Below, one piece after another: positions 3,817 through 14,134 of a stretch of DNA of 38,284 nt. This DNA comes from a virus. The stretch is taken from IMG/VR virus record IMGVR_UViG_3300013126_003301, positions 1-38,284 of that record. One strand, written 5' to 3'. A program made the position numbers and the translations under genes. The notes beneath the pieces are model-generated. The model did not search any database. It was given only the letters and a program-made list of their open reading frames with translations, and was not told the DNA's origin. How positions within the stretch are numbered: the stretch's first letter is position 1; each line of letters starts with the position of its first letter.

Positions 3817-4163
3817 TCCAATAATCCTTTCGCTACTAAATCTATGCATCCAGACGGATCCCGTGACAAAGCTTGCGGACTAAACCTGTAAACTCTCCAG
3901 CCAAGCATTGCCGCTATATTCAGCTTCTCCCTGTCCGAGTCGGTGGCGTGTCTTCCGCCGTTGACGGCGTGGGAGCCACCGTCAACCTCAACCGCCACTT
4001 TTTCGTCAACGAAGGCCCAGTCGAACCGGTGCCTTCTCCCTAATTCCCTATCGAAGTGGTACTCCGCCGTTGGAACCTCTTTGTGACCCAAGAGTTTCCA
4101 GTAGTAAAGAAACAAACCGCTCTTGTCGCTTGACTTTGGACCGACCGCTATTTTTTTACCCAA
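3813..4163 (-). CDS. Vsr/DUF559-like PD-(D/E)XK nuclease
   Basis: This 116-residue protein has the compact core of very-short-patch-repair-like endonucleases: Asp48 in RFDWAF, then KVAVEVDGGSH (Glu59, Asp61) and a C-terminal LGWRVYRFSPQAL strand-helix. Such phage proteins often nick or resolve DNA intermediates; I cannot say whether this one is a resolvase, repair or nicking enzyme. The likely start is TTG at 4161-4163, preceded by AAAGG at a normal distance; no in-frame ATG fits better. It overlaps the pentapeptide gene by four bases. Confidence 0.75.
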   Translation of the reverse strand: MGKKIAVGPKSSDKSGLFLYYWKLLGHKEVPTAEYHFDRELGRRHRFDWAFVDEKVAVEVDGGSHAVNGGRHATDSDREKLNIAAMLGWRVYRFSPQALSRDPSGCIDLVAKGLLE

Positions 4164-4197
4164 GCTCAGCCTTTCCTAGTTCTTTCGTGTCGACAAC

Positions 4198-4605
4198 TCA
4201 TTCATCGCCATATTCGACCACGTACAGCGTTTCGCTTGAGACGCACCATAATATCGAGCCATTAGACAGCACCCTGTCGAGCAACATTTGATTTACATCA
4301 TCGGTGTGGAATACAGAACCTGGTCTGAATCCGCCGTCCTTGATGGTGAGCTGGTCTTTGAGCAAGATATAATATTGCGTTATCGTCGTTCCTTCCCTTG
4401 TCGCGCTCTGGTATTTCTTCTTTGGCTTCGGCGCTCTGTTTTCATCCCTGCATTCAGGCGTGCAATATGAGCGGTTTCTTCCGTCGGAATATTTAACATA
4501 CGTGTATTCTTTGCCACACCCAACGCATGTCGCCATTTCATCGGGCGCCCAATCTTTCGTTGCCTCAAGAATATCAGCGTCACTAAGCGTCAAGGTCATA
4601 TTCAT
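4198..4605 (-). CDS. Zinc-finger protein of unknown function
   Basis: With the ATG at 4605 the protein is 135 residues. It has a treble-clef-like cysteine pattern (Cys27, Cys30, Cys48, Cys52 in CVGCGK and YCTPEC), expected to bind zinc. The C-terminal half (about 70-135) is a predicted alpha/beta region with no motif I know. GAGGAA upstream supports this start; a longer frame reaching 4659 lies deeper inside the MazG gene. The start overlaps the MazG stop by 23 bases. Its role is unknown; its neighbours are nucleic-acid enzymes. Confidence 0.65.
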   Translation of the reverse strand: MNMTLTLSDADILEATKDWAPDEMATCVGCGKEYTYVKYSDGRNRSYCTPECRDENRAPKPKKKYQSATREGTTITQYYILLKDQLTIKDGGFRPGSVFHTDDVNQMLLDRVLSNGSILWCVSSETLYVVEYGDE

Positions 4606-4927
4606 CACGATTCCTCGATTTATCTGCGTCAAAACCATCCAACGGATAGCGTTTTTCAAGCTTCTCGATATTCATGCGAGCGATTTCGTTGAGCGGGGTT
4701 CCGAGTTCACGAGCCGCCAGAGCGCAATACCACATGATGTCGCCTATTTCCTTCAGCGCCAGGTCACGGTCAAATTCGTGGCTTTGGAAGCGGAATTTTT
4801 TCACCATATCCACAAACTCACCAGCTTCACCGGCGAGTCCGAGAGCAACATTCACAATCTGGTCGTTCTCGTTTAGCATTGTGTTTATCGTTCTGTTAGC
4901 TTTTTTCTGGTATTCGTTTAAGTCCAT
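4583..4927 (-). CDS. MazG-like nucleotide pyrophosphohydrolase
   Basis: This 114-residue all-helical protein has the MazG/dUTPase-like metal site: GLAGEAGEFVD gives Glu34 and Glu37, and LKEIGDIMWY gives Glu60 and Asp63. The family splits nucleoside triphosphates to monophosphate and pyrophosphate. Phage versions are proposed to clean nucleotide pools or to lower host ppGpp signalling. It lies between the exonuclease and the zinc-finger gene, in keeping with a nucleotide-metabolism role during replication. The start is ATG with AGGTG upstream. Confidence 0.85.
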   Translation of the reverse strand: MDLNEYQKKANRTINTMLNENDQIVNVALGLAGEAGEFVDMVKKFRFQSHEFDRDLALKEIGDIMWYCALAARELGTPLNEIARMNIEKLEKRYPLDGFDADKSRNRDEYDLDA

Positions 4928-5565: not shown

Positions 5566-6813
5566 TTAGTTCTGAATTAGGCTATCAGAATAGTACGTTC
5601 TGGTTCCATCGAACTTGACGAAAAATTGCCCGACCTCACCATGCCTGTGTTTTTTCAAATACAGCGTTTTGTCAAAATTACCCTCCTCTTGATGCAAGAA
5701 TATGATAATATCCGCCTCTTGTTCCAGTGAACCCGATTCCCGCAAATCAGACAACTGAGGAGTTTGGTTAGACCTACTCTCGATAGCTCTGTTGAGCTGG
5801 GCGGCGGCGATTACCGGGAGGTTGTATTCTTTCGCTATCGCCTTCAGTTCTCTGCTCACGTAACCTACTTCCTGCTCTCTATAATTCGATTTCACGTCAG
5901 CCGTCATCAATTGCAAGTAATCTACAAATATTATATTTACATTCCCGAGCTTGTCGAGCTCTTCTCTGATACCCTTCGGCGTAATCGCTGACGTGTCGTT
6001 TATATAAAGATTCCTCTTGACCTTCGTTAGGCTTTCCACGCCGTCAAGCAATGTGTCAAATTCTTCATCCGTCATTCTCCCCGTGCGTTGTTTGACCGTG
6101 CTTATTCCTGTACGCATAGATATAAACCGCATAGCCACCTGCTCGTTGCTCATCTCCAAAGAGAAGAACGCTATTTTCTTCGGGGTGTCGGAGTAGATAA
6201 TGTTGTACATGATAGACGTAAGCAATGAAGTTTTACCGACCCCTGGACGAGCGGCGACAATCACAAGGTCTGGGGGCGTAAAACCGCTTATCATCAAATC
6301 AAGTTGCCTTATACCCGTCTTTATAAATGTCAGCTCACCCCGGCTCGCCCTTCCCGTAGCGTCAAACGCCCCAGAGACAGCGTCATACAGCTCAACAGTA
6401 TTGGATTTCAAAAGTGGGTCGACTGATTTCAACAGAATAGCCAAATTCGCCAAAATTTGCCCTGTTTTTTCGCCGGCATACGCCTGTATCGCAATCTCGC
6501 TCATAATGTAAATAATTTTACGATTCTCGGCGTAATTTCTGACAATGTCGGCGTAAGATTCCGCCATGAGCGTTGTTGAAAAAACGGATAACAGATGGGC
6601 AATGTAATCCTCACCGACGATGTCATATTTTCCGGCTCGTTTTAGTTCTTCCGTTACGGTAATTGGGTCAATCGCCGACAGCGATTGGAAAGCTGTCCAG
6701 ATGTGCTGTATTCTGACATCGTGGAAATCCTCTGGCGATAGTATGCTTTTCAGGGTTCCGTCTATAAAAACAGCGCTTGTTACGCCCTCTTCCGCCTCTT
6801 GGTTATAAATCAT
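5566..6813 (-). CDS. dnaB: Replicative DNA helicase, DnaB family
   Basis: This 415-residue protein has the DnaB layout: an N-terminal helical domain (about 1-100), a linker, then a RecA-like ATPase. Walker A is ARPGVGKTS (188-196), followed by FFSLEMS (216-222), Walker B IIFVDYLQLM (294-303) and the AAQLNR and LRESGSLEQEADII motifs (about 338-370). It forms a hexamer that unwinds the fork 5' to 3'. It is slightly shorter than bacterial DnaB because the N-terminus begins close to the first helix. It overlaps the initiator gene by 11 bases, as in phages where initiator and helicase act as a loading pair. Confidence 0.94.
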   Translation of the reverse strand: MIYNQEAEEGVTSAVFIDGTLKSILSPEDFHDVRIQHIWTAFQSLSAIDPITVTEELKRAGKYDIVGEDYIAHLLSVFSTTLMAESYADIVRNYAENRKIIYIMSEIAIQAYAGEKTGQILANLAILLKSVDPLLKSNTVELYDAVSGAFDATGRASRGELTFIKTGIRQLDLMISGFTPPDLVIVAARPGVGKTSLLTSIMYNIIYSDTPKKIAFFSLEMSNEQVAMRFISMRTGISTVKQRTGRMTDEEFDTLLDGVESLTKVKRNLYINDTSAITPKGIREELDKLGNVNIIFVDYLQLMTADVKSNYREQEVGYVSRELKAIAKEYNLPVIAAAQLNRAIESRSNQTPQLSDLRESGSLEQEADIIIFLHQEEGNFDKTLYLKKHRHGEVGQFFVKFDGTRTYYSDSLIQN

Positions 6814-7729
6814 TTTTCATCCTTTCCAGTTTTTCTTGAATGAGCCTAGCCCTGTCTGGGTTTATTTCACCCGTTGGTGGCTCGAATACTTTTGATTCCT
6901 GTTTTTTGGGCTGGTTCAGCGCCCAGGTTATGGACTGTGGTCTTACTACTGTCAGGTCTTTGCGGACACACAAGTTGACCGCCGAAACGATGTCTTTCTT
7001 CGATACGCCTATAACATCCCATTCTGCGAACGCCTCATCCCATGCCGTAAAGTAGCGTGGAAGATATGTCACGCCCGACGCTTCTACAAACGCCTCGGCG
7101 TATAGGCGATGTTGGTCGGAATAGTCATTTATTCCAGAACCGAGGTTTCGTGTAGCTTTATTATTGTTGGTTGGTTCTACATACGCTTCCCGGAGGGATG
7201 AGAACTTTGTTTTTTTGTTATCCCTAATAAAATCTTTGAAAGTGTCAACGGCTTCAGGGTCGAGTAAATTTTTCTTGGTTTTTCGCACGGGTTTTGGTTT
7301 AGCGAGCACTTCATCCCTTAAAGGGTTAATATGATGGTTATTATTATGGTTTAAGTCAAGTGGCTTGACTATCTGATAGTCAAGTGGCTTGACTATCGAT
7401 AGTAAAGTGGCTTGACTATCATTTATTTTTTGAACGTTCAATTTATAAATGTTTGTCCTGCTATCGGCGTTGGTTCCTGATATTTCGAGGTATCCATTTT
7501 CCTTCAGGGCTTCGATTGTGTCTACAATACCTTGTCGTGAAAGGCATGTTTTCGCTTCCAATCTTGTTAGCCCCGGGTAAGCTATTCCATCGTCATTACA
7601 GTGGTCGGCGATGGCGAGCAACAAAAGCTTTGCTGTTGAAGCTTTCGCCGTGCTTTCAACGCCGTTTTTGGTATAAGACAGGTCTTTTATGTCCGCCTCA
7701 AAAGTAGCGGACATAATTCGTATGCTCAT
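6803..7729 (-). CDS. Replication initiator (winged-helix, lambda O / replisome-organiser type)
   Basis: This 308-residue protein has an N-terminal winged helix (about 30-97; LTRLEAKTCLSRQGIVDTI is the likely helix-turn-helix). Residues 104-126 form a linker encoded by three palindromic iterons, followed by a basic tail and a C-terminal helical domain (about 210-290; YFTAWDEAFAEWDVI) of the kind that contacts helicase. The order of winged helix, iterons inside the gene and helicase gene next is that of lambda O-type initiators, which bind repeats within their own gene. The family is judged from architecture and context, not from a diagnostic motif. The start ATG has GAGG upstream. Confidence 0.72.
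   Translation of the reverse strand: MSIRIMSATFEADIKDLSYTKNGVESTAKASTAKLLLLAIADHCNDDGIAYPGLTRLEAKTCLSRQGIVDTIEALKENGYLEISGTNADSRTNIYKLNVQKINDSQATLLSIVKPLDYQIVKPLDLNHNNNHHINPLRDEVLAKPKPVRKTKKNLLDPEAVDTFKDFIRDNKKTKFSSLREAYVEPTNNNKATRNLGSGINDYSDQHRLYAEAFVEASGVTYLPRYFTAWDEAFAEWDVIGVSKKDIVSAVNLCVRKDLTVVRPQSITWALNQPKKQESKVFEPPTGEINPDRARLIQEKLERMKNDL
7354..7417. repeat. Three palindromic iterons, likely replication origin
   Basis: AGTCAAGTGGCTTGACT occurs at 7354-7370 and 7378-7394, and with one change (AGTAAAGTGGCTTGACT) at 7401-7417. Each is an inverted repeat with 7-bp arms around TGG, set 24 and 23 bases apart, about two helical turns. In the middle copy the arms extend to 10 bp (GATAGTCAAG). 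AT-rich DNA flanks both sides (about 7321-7353 and 7418-7455), including the 12-bp palindrome TTGAACGTTCAA at 7430-7441. The site is inside the initiator gene. Confidence 0.75.
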
Positions 7730-7736
7730 ATAAGCC

Positions 7737-7973
7737 TCATTCCTGATTAATAATTATGTACTTGTTCGTGTAATATCTGCCGAACTTTTTTCTGGTAGCT
7801 ATTTTTATGAAACCGCATCGCTCTAATTTAATCACCGTGGACCTAACTGTCGCCGCCGTAAGATATACATGCCTGGCGATATTTGGCAATGAGTCATCGG
7901 GATTATCCGAAATGTAGTTATATACAGCCACGGCGTTCCATCCGCAAATCTTAGCAATTTTATTATTCATCAT
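7737..7973 (-). CDS. Small winged-helix DNA-binding protein
   Basis: This 78-residue protein is essentially one winged helix: SLPNIARHVYLTAATVRSTVIKLERCGFI is a MarR/GntR-like helix-turn-helix followed by a basic wing (KKFGRYYTNKYI). It lies directly upstream of the replication initiator, so it may regulate the early operon or assist initiation. Two adjacent ATG codons (7973 and 7970) could serve as start; AAAGG lies just upstream and suits the second. A strong hairpin precedes the gene. Confidence 0.7.
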   Translation of the reverse strand: MMNNKIAKICGWNAVAVYNYISDNPDDSLPNIARHVYLTAATVRSTVIKLERCGFIKIATRKKFGRYYTNKYIIINQE

Positions 7974-8018: not shown

Positions 8019-8699
8019 TTACAGGGTTTCGGCACCAATCACGTTCTTATAATGGTTGCCGTTGCTCATCGTTTTCTCTGAGTACTTCCAGAACACCCTA
8101 ATGGGTTTCTCGATTTTCTGCGCTTTGCGGAAATCGTCCTCAAACAAACCCAGCAACAAGCCGTATGTTTCAAGGGCGAATCTCGGATAAGTGGTGTAGT
8201 TGAGCCTCGGGAATTTGTCGCCAACCCGCCAGACCTCAATCCCTACTTTGTCGTCCTGCTTCGGGTTGATGATTAACCAATCGCCATCGACGAACTGAGT
8301 CTCATCGTTATTTTCTCCTTCCTTCGGCTGTGTAACAGCGGGCTTTTCTGGCTGTGTAACGGCTGGAGCTGGCTTTTCGGGCTGTGTAACGGCTGGAGCT
8401 GGCTTTTCGGGCTGTGTAACGTCAACAGTATCCCGCTTCGGATATGGGAAAAAGTCGAAGCTCTTCGCCGTGTCGACCATGTCGATAAGCTGTAGAAACG
8501 CTGACAGACTATCTACCGACCGTGCCGTTACGTTGATTCTGAAAGGCATACCGTCCTGCTTGCCCCACAGTTCCGTCCACGCTACTCCGCCCGCCTCAGG
8601 AAGCTCTGTTCTTTCTGAGAAAACTTCCACTAAGCTATCGGTTACGCTCTCGGTCTCGTCGCCCGGGAGGTCAAACGGTGTTCCATTATCTTTTGCCAT
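8019..8699 (-). CDS. Unknown early protein with Pro-rich repeat linker
   Basis: This 226-residue protein has an acidic N-terminal domain (about 1-90), a linker with the ten-residue repeat TQPEKPAPAV two and a half times (about 94-125), and a C-terminal domain (about 135-226) with GDWLIINPKQDD and PIRVFWKYSEK. Two domains joined by a proline-rich tether suggest a scaffold or nucleic-acid-binding protein, perhaps an SSB substitute since no SSB is visible, but no motif proves this. The linker is encoded by 30-bp tandem repeats and may vary in length. It overlaps the upstream gene by 14 bases. Confidence 0.65.
   Translation of the reverse strand: MAKDNGTPFDLPGDETESVTDSLVEVFSERTELPEAGGVAWTELWGKQDGMPFRINVTARSVDSLSAFLQLIDMVDTAKSFDFFPYPKRDTVDVTQPEKPAPAVTQPEKPAPAVTQPEKPAVTQPKEGENNDETQFVDGDWLIINPKQDDKVGIEVWRVGDKFPRLNYTTYPRFALETYGLLLGLFEDDFRKAQKIEKPIRVFWKYSEKTMSNGNHYKNVIGAETL
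8327..8420 (-). repeat. 30-bp tandem repeat in linker
   Basis: Units at 8351-8380 and 8381-8410 are identical, with partial units on both sides. They encode the Thr-Gln-Pro-Glu-Lys-Pro-Ala-Pro-Ala-Val linker repeat. Confidence 0.85.
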
Positions 8700-10478: not shown

Positions 10479-12191
10479 TTGCTTACTGATCCCAAACTTA
10501 AAAGCCAGGTAGACCAACTCTGGGACAAATTCTGGACCGGCGGGCTGGCCAACCCGATGGACGCCATTGAACAGTTCTCCTATTTACTCTTTCTCAAACG
10601 TCTGGATGATGCTGAAAACCGTCGGCAACGCCAGGCAGAACGACTCAAGAAGGATTATCAAGCGCAGCTTCAGTCGGAATTTCGTTGGGGGTATTGGACA
10701 AACCTAAAAGCGGAAGAATCCCTGAAGTATTTAAAAGAAGCGATCTTTCCACAAATGCGCACACTCGGCGGAACTACCAGTTCTTTTCAGCTTTATATGC
10801 AAAATGCCGAGTGTAAGATCAACAAACCCTCTTTACTGATCGAAGTTTGCAAACTGATCGACAACATGGATATTGCCCAACAACAGCAGGATGTGCAGGG
10901 CGACCTTTATGAGTATCTTCTTTCCAAGCTCAGCACTGCTGGGCGCAACGGACAATTCCGTACCCCGCGTCATATCATCCGCATGATGGTGCAGATGATT
11001 GCTCCGCGTCCCAAAGAGCGCATTGGTGATCTGGCAGCCGGCACCTGCGGCTTTTTGGTCAATGCGTATCAGTACATCCTGGAAACGCATACCTCCTCTG
11101 AAATTCTACGTTATGACGAGCAGGGTTGGCCGCATAACTTGATCGGTGACCAGTTGACGGATGAGGAACAGAAGGCACTCAAGCAGCCCGAATCACTGCG
11201 CGGTTTTGATAACGATTCAGGTATGACCATGCTGCGCATCGGCTCGATGAACCTGATGCTGCACGGAATTGAGTCACCACAATTCTTCTACAAAGATACC
11301 CTTTCCAAAGTCTACGAACAGGAACGGGATTACGATGTCATCCTGATGAACCCGCCTTTCAAGGGTGCGGTGGATAAAAATGACCTGAACGATTCCCTGC
11401 AGCCTGCCGGCACAACTAAAAGCGAACTTCTCTTCTTGCACTTGATCCTGCGCACATTGGATATGGGCGGTCGCTGCGCGGTGATCGTGCCGGACGGTGT
11501 GCTGTTTGGCTCCAGCCGGGCACATGTAGAGCTGCGACGGAAATTAATTGAAGAAAACCGCCTGGATGGAGTGATTTCGATGCCGGGCGGGGTTTTCAAA
11601 CCCTACGCCGGCGTATCAACCGCGGTATTGTTCTTCACCCGCGGCGCGAAGACGGACAAGATTTGGTTCTACGATATGGCCAGCGACGGTTTCACGCTGG
11701 ATGATAAAAGAACGCCTGTAACAGAAAACGACATTCCCGACATCCTGACCTGCTGGCAAAACCGCCAGAATGTGGAATTTCAGACCAAACGGCAGACACG
11801 GATTGAGGAGCTGACATTCCAGCTCAAACCACTGAACGAGGAACGGCTGCGTCTGGATGCTGAGATCAACCGATTGACCTTTGAACAAGCTATTTCTCCT
11901 ACCGGTGACGGTCCAATCGCGGAGGAACTGCAAGGTGTAAAAAGCCACTTGAAAGAATTGCAAACTCAACTTGCACCACTGCGCGCTGAATTTAACCAAC
12001 TTTCCCGTCAGTTTTGGGTAAGCAAAGAGCAGGTCAAGACCAATAAATATGACCTGAGCGTCAGCCGCTATCGTCAAAGTATTGGGGATAAGGTTTATTA
12101 CGAAATACCACAGGTAACTTTAGAACGATCATTACAGTTAGAACTTGTGATTGTAGATGAAATAAATCAACTAAAGGGAATGTTGGGTTGA
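10479..12191 (+). CDS. hsdM: Type I restriction-modification DNA methyltransferase subunit
   Basis: This 570-residue protein has an N-terminal HsdM helical domain (about 1-140), GQFRTPRHI (159-166), the SAM-binding motif I as DLAAGTCGF (184-192) and the catalytic NPPF (291-294), which marks N6-adenine methylation. Helical C-terminal segments (about 440-510) are predicted coiled coil and contact the specificity subunit. The start is TTG 10479 with AGGAG seven bases upstream. It overlaps hsdS by four bases (TTGA). Its base usage differs from the surrounding phage. Two HsdM and one HsdS would form a methylase; no hsdR is present here. Confidence 0.94.
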   Translation: MLTDPKLKSQVDQLWDKFWTGGLANPMDAIEQFSYLLFLKRLDDAENRRQRQAERLKKDYQAQLQSEFRWGYWTNLKAEESLKYLKEAIFPQMRTLGGTTSSFQLYMQNAECKINKPSLLIEVCKLIDNMDIAQQQQDVQGDLYEYLLSKLSTAGRNGQFRTPRHIIRMMVQMIAPRPKERIGDLAAGTCGFLVNAYQYILETHTSSEILRYDEQGWPHNLIGDQLTDEEQKALKQPESLRGFDNDSGMTMLRIGSMNLMLHGIESPQFFYKDTLSKVYEQERDYDVILMNPPFKGAVDKNDLNDSLQPAGTTKSELLFLHLILRTLDMGGRCAVIVPDGVLFGSSRAHVELRRKLIEENRLDGVISMPGGVFKPYAGVSTAVLFFTRGAKTDKIWFYDMASDGFTLDDKRTPVTENDIPDILTCWQNRQNVEFQTKRQTRIEELTFQLKPLNEERLRLDAEINRLTFEQAISPTGDGPIAEELQGVKSHLKELQTQLAPLRAEFNQLSRQFWVSKEQVKTNKYDLSVSRYRQSIGDKVYYEIPQVTLERSLQLELVIVDEINQLKGMLG

Positions 12192-13357
12192 AATCTAAAT
12201 TAGTCCCTCTTTATGAATTGGGAGAAATAATATCTGGTTCAACACCAGATACTACAAATTTGGAATATTGGAGGGGTAATATTCCCTGGATTACTCCGGC
12301 TGATTTAACTGAACATCAAGGAATATTTTTCACAGGAGACCTAAGGAAGATTACTGAGTTAGGCTATAAAAGCTGTTCAACTAAGTTAATTCCCCCAGGA
12401 AGTATTTTATTCAGTAGTCGTGCCCCCATTGGACATTGCGCGATCACCACTTATCCACTTTGTACCAACCAAGGGTTTAAAAATTTAGTCCCCAATAAAA
12501 AACTTGACCCAATTTATGGTTACTTTGCTCTAAAATACCTTACCCCACAAATTGAATCTCTCGGTAGAGGAGCGACATTTACTGAGGTTAATAAAGAGTT
12601 ATTTGAAAATATTTGTATTCCACTTCCTCCCCTCCCTGAGCAGCAGCGGATTGCCGCCATCCTGCAAAAAGCCGACCACCTGCGCCATCTGCGCAGGTAT
12701 GCGCGTCAATTGAGTGATGGTTACTTGCAGTCCGTGTTTTTGGAGATGTTTGGGGATCCAGTAACTAATCCAAAAAAATGGCGATTAACTCAATTCAATA
12801 AGGTTTGCGATTCTAGATTAGGTAAAATGCTGGACGAAAAAAGGCAAACCGGTATGAACAAGCACCAATATCTACGAAATTTTAATGTTCATTGGTTTTA
12901 TTTTGACCTATCCAACATGGCCGAAATGGATTTTGATGAGAAGGATCAATTAGAATTTCAACTAAGGTATGGAGATGTTTTAATTTGTGAAGGTGGAGAA
13001 GTCGGTCGGACTGCTATTTGGCGAGATGAAGTAAAAGGATGTTATTTTCAAAAAGCACTTCATCGCGTTCGCCCATATTCGAAATTGGTTACTTCTGAAT
13101 ATATTATGTACCTTATGTGGTGGATGGCAAAAAATGGGGGTTTGGGCGATTTTACTTCCCAAGTAACAATCGCTCACCTAACTGGTGAAAAACTCAAGGA
13201 TTTGATTATTCCAATACCTCCATTGTCCAAACAAAACGAATTTTTAAATGTCGTTAACCAATACATTCTCCTTTCAAATAAACAATTCGAATCTGAGCGA
13301 CAAATGGAGTACCTTTTTCAATCATTGCTGCAACGAGCATTTCAAGGGGAGTTGTAA
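12188..13357 (+). CDS. hsdS: Type I restriction-modification specificity subunit
   Basis: This 389-residue protein has two target-recognition domains. The first (about 1-150) ends with PLPPLPEQQRIAAILQKAD, then a central conserved helix region (about 160-195), then TRD2 (about 195-345) ending with IPIPPLSKQNEFLNVV and a C-terminal helix. The two half-repeats read the two parts of a bipartite DNA site. The start is TTG inside the hsdM stop. It is more AT-rich than hsdM, as is common for hsdS, which evolves by domain exchange. The target sequence cannot be inferred. Confidence 0.93.
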   Translation: MKSKLVPLYELGEIISGSTPDTTNLEYWRGNIPWITPADLTEHQGIFFTGDLRKITELGYKSCSTKLIPPGSILFSSRAPIGHCAITTYPLCTNQGFKNLVPNKKLDPIYGYFALKYLTPQIESLGRGATFTEVNKELFENICIPLPPLPEQQRIAAILQKADHLRHLRRYARQLSDGYLQSVFLEMFGDPVTNPKKWRLTQFNKVCDSRLGKMLDEKRQTGMNKHQYLRNFNVHWFYFDLSNMAEMDFDEKDQLEFQLRYGDVLICEGGEVGRTAIWRDEVKGCYFQKALHRVRPYSKLVTSEYIMYLMWWMAKNGGLGDFTSQVTIAHLTGEKLKDLIIPIPPLSKQNEFLNVVNQYILLSNKQFESERQMEYLFQSLLQRAFQGEL

Positions 13358-13360
13358 AAT

Positions 13361-14134
13361 ATGAGCGACCTGCCAACCTGGATAGACATTCTTCTTCAAT
13401 CAGGTCCCATAATAATTAAAGGAATTCAGCGAATTTACACTCGCTACAAATGGCGTGGAATTTCAAAGGATGCCCGTGAAATTGCTCTAGCTATTCACAG
13501 CTTTTCATGGACAAATCTCCAGCAGCAACTCCCAACAATTATCAAAATTGGTGAAATTGATCGACCTGAAATTACCCAAATCCAGAAAATTTGGCAATCA
13601 ACTGATACCTCAATTCTTCTAGATGGAGATGCTGGTTCAGGAAAATCAGGGATTGCGATTAGACTCGGGAAGCGTCTTTCTGAAGGGGGAATGCCTGTTC
13701 TCTTTCTTAGAGCAACTGAATTTTCCTCTGATCAAGATCCAATAACAATTATCCAAAACCGAACGGCAATTAAATATCCACTGATGGAGGCTTTGAGTAA
13801 ACTTAGCAAAGAAAAACCAATTGCTATTATTGTTGACCAGCTCGACTCCGTTTCAGAAACTGACCTATGCAAAAACTTTGTCGGTTTTCTCAAAAGCGTT
13901 GCAGGAATTCCAAATATAAAAATACTTGCTGTAACACGCAAATACGAATTACAACATGATCCAGATATTTCTTCATTGGGTTTTCAACAAGAAGAGATTG
14001 GCAGATTTACAAATGAACAGGCGATAAATTTTCTTTCCCAATTAGGCGTTAACAAACCATCTCAAGTATTGATTGATTTGTCAAACAATTTGCTTAATCT
14101 CAGCCTGATTGCTGAGGTTCTTTCTCATCTCTGA
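13361..14134 (+). pseudogene. STAND/NACHT-type ATPase, C-terminally truncated
   Basis: This 257-residue frame follows hsdS after three bases. It has a short helical N-terminus, Walker A in LLDGDAGSGKSG (about 87-98), Walker B-like AIIVDQLDSVSE (about 148-159) and an LAVTRKYEL sensor-like strand. It stops shortly after NLSLIAEVLSHL, where NACHT/STAND proteins normally continue into a long sensor region. Phage-like sequence resumes within about 20 bases of the stop, so the gene seems to be cut at a junction. Intact relatives are often phage-defence proteins. hsdR might have been expected in this position. Confidence 0.7.

Follow-up and report, generated by a model that had tools for sequence, protein, structure and literature searches.

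The DNA analysed here, referred to below as the window, is the whole of the 38,284-nucleotide viral record IMGVR_UViG_3300013126_003301 from IMG/VR; it carries on its minus strand a replication initiator gene followed by the gene of a DnaB-type replicative helicase [Table 1]. The initiator belongs to the HTH_36 family of Pfam (PF13730; E = 1.7e-08, 34.6 bits against a cut-off of 25) and matches two PHROG families, phrog_1032, 'replication initiation protein' (4e-16, 60.8 bits), and phrog_391, 'O-like' (4e-12, 47.4 bits). AlphaFold2, given 21 sequences, modelled residues 1-103 with confidence as a winged helix (pLDDT about 90-97) and residues 113-202, mostly below 50, as largely disordered. Comparison of folds yielded Z scores of 8.0-8.2 to 4pt7 and 5kbj (the latter a Rep-DNA complex, Z = 8.0), both of which we take to be RepA_N proteins, in a tie with unrelated winged helices. 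Foldseek returned generic winged helices only, with no match at E <= 0.001, while a sequence search of solved structures found no relative of the initiator and the annotated phage records held no direct relative at either the protein or the DNA level.

Directly upstream of the initiator gene, positions 7737-7973 of the minus strand encode a 78-aa winged-helix protein that is weakly similar to replication initiators and may regulate the origin operon. The contig also carries terminase, portal-like and major head protein genes, together with Type I restriction-modification genes on the plus strand (10479-14134) comprising HsdM (10479-12191), HsdS (12188-13357) and an ATPase-like gene; no HsdR was identified on it beside HsdM and HsdS.

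Table 1. Features of the replication region (positions in the window)
Feature	Position	Strand	Remarks
Replication initiator gene	6803..7729	-	308 aa; N-terminal winged helix (HTH_36), disordered linker, helical C-terminal part
DnaB-type replicative helicase gene	5566..6813	-	Overlaps the end of the initiator gene; DnaB_C, E 6.5e-76; DnaB N-domain, 6.2e-13; phrog_19
Iteron A	7398..7420	-	Most distant from the AACC repeats; codon phase SQATL
Iteron A core change	7398..7420	-	Coding-strand G to T, removes a TGA stop; L003, L031 and L033 share it in this frame
Iteron B	7375..7397	-	Perfect palindrome, GATAGTCAAG-CCA-CTTGACTATC on the coding strand; reads VKPLD
Iteron C	7351..7373	-	Adjoins the AACC repeats; 17-bp core perfect; reads VKPLD
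AACC element	7322..7352	-	TAAACCATAATAATAACCATCATATTAACCC on the coding strand; AACCATMAT twice, 12 bp apart; 25% G+C
Second palindrome	7430..7441		TTGAACGTTCAA; one of 14 perfect 12-bp palindromes in the window

Within the initiator gene lie three 23-bp units (register 7351-7420), each containing a 17-bp hyphenated palindromic core, AGTCAAG-TGG-CTTGACT (7-3-7). The cores start at 7354, 7378 and 7401, a spacing of 24 and 23 bp or about two helical turns; two of the three are perfect and the third has a single mismatch (C to A at 7404). No comparable triple arose in 100 dinucleotide shuffles of the window. The array sits about 310 bp into the coding sequence and corresponds to codons 103-126, at the start of the linker that the model predicts to be disordered. 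The initial annotation, which had described three 17-bp inverted repeats at 23-24-bp spacing in the linker region of the initiator gene, next to the helicase gene, was thus accurate as to both the repeats and their setting. The sole other tight triple in the window, at about 8326-8410, is a tandem 30-bp repeat of the GGCTTTTCTGGCTGTGTAACGGCTGGAGCT type that forms part of the coding sequence of ORF 8019-8699, whose product has no family matches.

Elsewhere among 2.9 million viral contigs, the exact 17-mer occurs in one only, L003, which is also the nearest relative of the window by protein alone; a two-copy pattern search added three more contigs, L031, L032 and L033. Two contigs returned by a triple-core scan (L034 and L035) were discarded as carrying unrelated low-complexity coding repeats of the PLKPLVPDSP type. 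In all four retained contigs the palindrome recurs three or four times at the matching position, with the winged-helix N-domain on one side and the remainder of the initiator on the other; these initiators are 37-52% identical to the window protein. The nucleotide identity of their N-domains to that of the window is 52-63%, and their iteron cores match the consensus at 88-100% identity. Loss of the repeats from relatives that conserve the protein, named by the initial annotation as the outcome contrary to its reading, is the opposite of what we found, every close relative found having kept them. Elsewhere in the superfamily, initiators differ in their recognition helix and have other iterons in this position.

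The iteron unit is translated in three codon phases, as VKPLD, SQATL or SSHLT, and the order of these phases is SQATL-VKPLD-VKPLD in the window, VKPLD-SQATL-VKPLD in L003 and L033, and VKPLD-SSHLT-SQATL-VKPLD in L031. In the SQATL phase a perfect unit (AGT CAA GCC ACT TGA) would run into a stop codon; all four SQATL-phase units have T in place of this G and so read TTA (CTTTAC), and they otherwise differ from one another solely at the last base of the core. The VKPLD phase uses the codons GTC AAG CCA CTT GAC in nine of its ten occurrences, against 33-39% of codons shared at identical residues of the N-domain. Because the same unit is kept in different frames and the TGA is removed by a single change, selection acts on the DNA and not on the peptide. 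In L032 (4004-4871) the initiator frame shifts inside the iteron array, one ORF (4004-4396) ending just past the array and another (4353-4871) holding the rest; the core change in the third unit avoids TGA in the second frame only. A sequencing indel, splitting of the gene or a frameshift could each account for this change of frame.

Three functions other than that of an origin may be considered for the palindromes. They could be operators at which the initiator, or the small helix-turn-helix protein encoded at 7737-7973, represses transcription, replication starting elsewhere. We regard this as improbable: palindromes are typical of operators and a 78-aa winged-helix protein is encoded next door, but those of the window are buried in coding sequence, throughout the superfamily such repeats separate the two initiator domains, and the equivalent position in lambda and P22 is the origin. 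Autoregulation could nonetheless occur alongside origin function. It is less probable still that the palindromes work through their structure, as RNA hairpins or DNA cruciforms, and not by being bound for their sequence: each unit could fold into a 7-bp stem closed by a 3-nt loop, but the stop-avoiding change disrupts one pair that the other arm leaves uncompensated in all four units, and it is the sequence, rather than the pairing, that is kept across phages. Least probable of all is selection for a protein repeat, which the presence of VKPLD twice in the window protein and again in relatives might suggest and which is already contradicted by the frame data (the same DNA read as three different peptides, in an order that varies between phages, with fixed codons) and by the predicted disorder of the encoded segment.

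The flanks of the array are both low in G+C (25% at 7322-7353 and 23% at 7421-7460), in line with the AT-rich flanks of the initial annotation, and the 3' flank is below the gene mean in all five phages. Only the 7322-7353 flank contains a motif conserved in the relatives. The 7421-7460 side is the more AT-rich of the two in the window, yet in L003 and L033 it is not AT-rich, and its sequence is not conserved; for this reason we place the unwinding element on the 7322-7352 side. The second palindrome that had been noted next to the iterons does exist at 7430, but it is not above chance given the number of its kind in the window and is missing from L003, L031, L032 and L033; we therefore reject it as a part of the origin and consider it probably fortuitous. 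Right about the iterons themselves, that earlier reading had overlooked the conserved AACC repeats at 7322-7352. These AACCRTCA-type repeats, 11-12 bp apart, are located just past iteron C. They are conserved in L003 and L033, the equivalent place in L003 reading AACCATCATTTAACCATCATTAAATCATTGA with the second copy in a different reading frame.

The distribution of this motif was surveyed in 19 related initiator genes collected by protein similarity only, which represent about eight lineages including Alphaproteobacteria and Salinivibrio prophages. AACCRTCA was present within 80 bp past the iterons in 18 of them, with 30 exact copies in the 1,520 bp of post-iteron sequence compared to four in the remaining 12,403 bp; the copies are all on the coding strand and mostly 10-12 bp apart. 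The AACC motif notwithstanding, iteron sequences vary between these lineages. A matrix derived from 17 of the genes, from which the window and its close relatives were excluded, gave its highest-scoring pair in the entire window at the 7352 site (23.5 bits; none of 100 mononucleotide shuffles exceeded 21.1).

A blind scan for three AACCRTCA copies at 11-bp spacing identified 88 viral stretches, and 65 of the 80 that were read had an HTH_36-type initiator N-domain upstream on the same strand; the others were largely contig edges or members of a second group (e.g. L044, L057, L092 and L112) with many repeats of the AACC 11-mer itself. The first AACC copy occupied all three reading frames (30, 26 and 22 times). 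A scan at 12-bp spacing, meant as a negative control, was not clean: 33 of 80 loci lay behind an initiator N-domain, most of the others being microsatellites. Since this control also found initiators, the spacing is best described as 10-12 bp, not strictly 11. At L044, L057, L068, L092, L109, L112 and L114 the proteins do not match HTH_36 and the AACC 11-mer is itself present in many tandem copies, no separate iterons being seen by eye; the L112 protein resembles phage replisome organisers (Phage_rep_org_N), under the family cut-off. The motif crosses initiator types, in that these non-HTH_36 proteins carry the 11-mer too.

Variants were seen past the iterons of other O-like phage initiators (loci L242, L244, L245, L246 and L247), namely AACCAGTCA in mEp460, Vibrio D67 and Klebsiella RothD, AACCTATCAATG in Psychrobacter Y8A and CCTAACAACT in Vibrio K71, suggestive of a drifting consensus. 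Lambda, P22 (in the ori stretch examined, which has no AACCRTCA) and SfIV are without the motif, which is thus not required of every such origin. We found no earlier description of it in the open literature, which does not prove it new.

The arrangement in the window has close counterparts in well-studied phages. In lambda, the iterons lie inside the linker-coding part of O at a spacing of 20, 24 and 23 bp and are followed by an AT-rich tract, as in the window. The Salmonella phage P22 (NC_002371) has its annotated rep_origin inside the O-like initiator gene 18, directly followed by gene 12 for a phage-encoded DnaB-like helicase, again as in the window, although its iteron sequence is unlike ours. 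Together with the retention of the repeats in relatives, this shared layout of lambda O and P22 gene 18 supports the proposal of the initial annotation that a lambda-like origin lies inside the initiator gene. The differences from lambda on which it had remarked are not ones of kind: lambda iterons are likewise inverted repeats, bound by O dimers (PMC7466680, PMC5043065), and three copies come near the numbers known, since copy number varies (four in lambda, six in Stx phages). A genuine difference is that lambda uses host DnaB with its loader P, while the window phage has a DnaB-type helicase of its own.

At the protein level, lambda and P22 O match Phage_rep_O and TIGR01610 (the lambda O N-terminal family in Pfam and NCBIfam) strongly, and the window initiator matches neither; it is not detectably homologous to lambda O in sequence, a profile comparison with lambda and P22 O (E = 0.039, probability 1.3%) leaving homology unsupported. 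Since the window initiator falls outside the lambda-O sequence families, its membership of them is undemonstrated, and it probably works like lambda O by analogy of layout. Closer in protein family are the HTH_36-type O-like initiators of many prophages (PHROG 391 and 1032), which share the N-domain family, have family-specific linker iterons and carry AACCRTCA repeats just downstream of these, as in the window; their iteron sequences and C-terminal parts are unlike those of the window. In the RepA_N plasmid pSK41, ori is central in rep and the encoded part is a dispensable linker; the chimeric plasmid pPR9, in whose initiator the N-domain is of the Pfam 13730 (HTH_36) type, replicates autonomously and so shows that an HTH_36-type initiator can drive replication (PMC5703833). 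While pSK41 and pPR9 are Firmicutes plasmids whose C-domain is of another type than that of the window initiator, pPR9 is an experimental precedent for the initiator type found here.

We are confident, overall, that the theta-type origin of this phage lies within the part of its initiator gene that encodes the linker. By analogy with lambda, P22 and iteron plasmids, the N-terminal winged helix would bind each of the three palindromic iterons as a dimer, and wrapping or bending of the array would cause the adjoining AT-rich AACC repeats at 7322-7352 to open under negative supercoiling; the phage's own DnaB-type helicase, the product of the next gene, would then be loaded on the opened strand. 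In lambda, once O dimers have bound the inverted repeats, the array bends and negative supercoiling lets the AT-rich DNA beside it open (PMC5043065, PMC7466680). The Rep proteins of iteron plasmids attach to a single strand of the 13-mers repeated in their unwinding element, every one of which is needed (PMC4081077), and it is by analogy with these 13-mers that we infer the AACC repeats to be the unwinding element. The GC-skew inflection anticipated at 7.4 kb was not seen; the skew gave no origin signal, tracking gene direction and staying flat from about 6.5 to 8.5 kb, and is uninformative here.

More tentatively, and with somewhat less than even confidence, we suggest that 11-bp-phased AACCRTCA may be a general and previously undescribed phage origin element, acting as a sequence-specific unwinding or helicase-entry site common to origins whose iterons and initiators have diverged beyond recognition. 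It would then probably be recognised by a common factor, such as a replication protein of the host or a surface that the initiators share, and not by the iteron-binding helix.

An origin embedded in an initiator gene is of a known kind; what is added here is the frame-independent conservation of the iterons and a widely shared AACC element. The origin of an uncultured phage lineage, very probably inside the initiator gene, is placed to within about 100 bp, and the motif beside its iterons recurs next to the origins of many unrelated phages. One and the same stretch thus keeps both a DNA signal and a protein, the iteron being read in any frame and mutated only where translation would stop. These findings raise the question of what recognises the unwinding element in phages with AACCRTCA, and the repeats may provide a DNA-only marker of phage origins in metagenomes.
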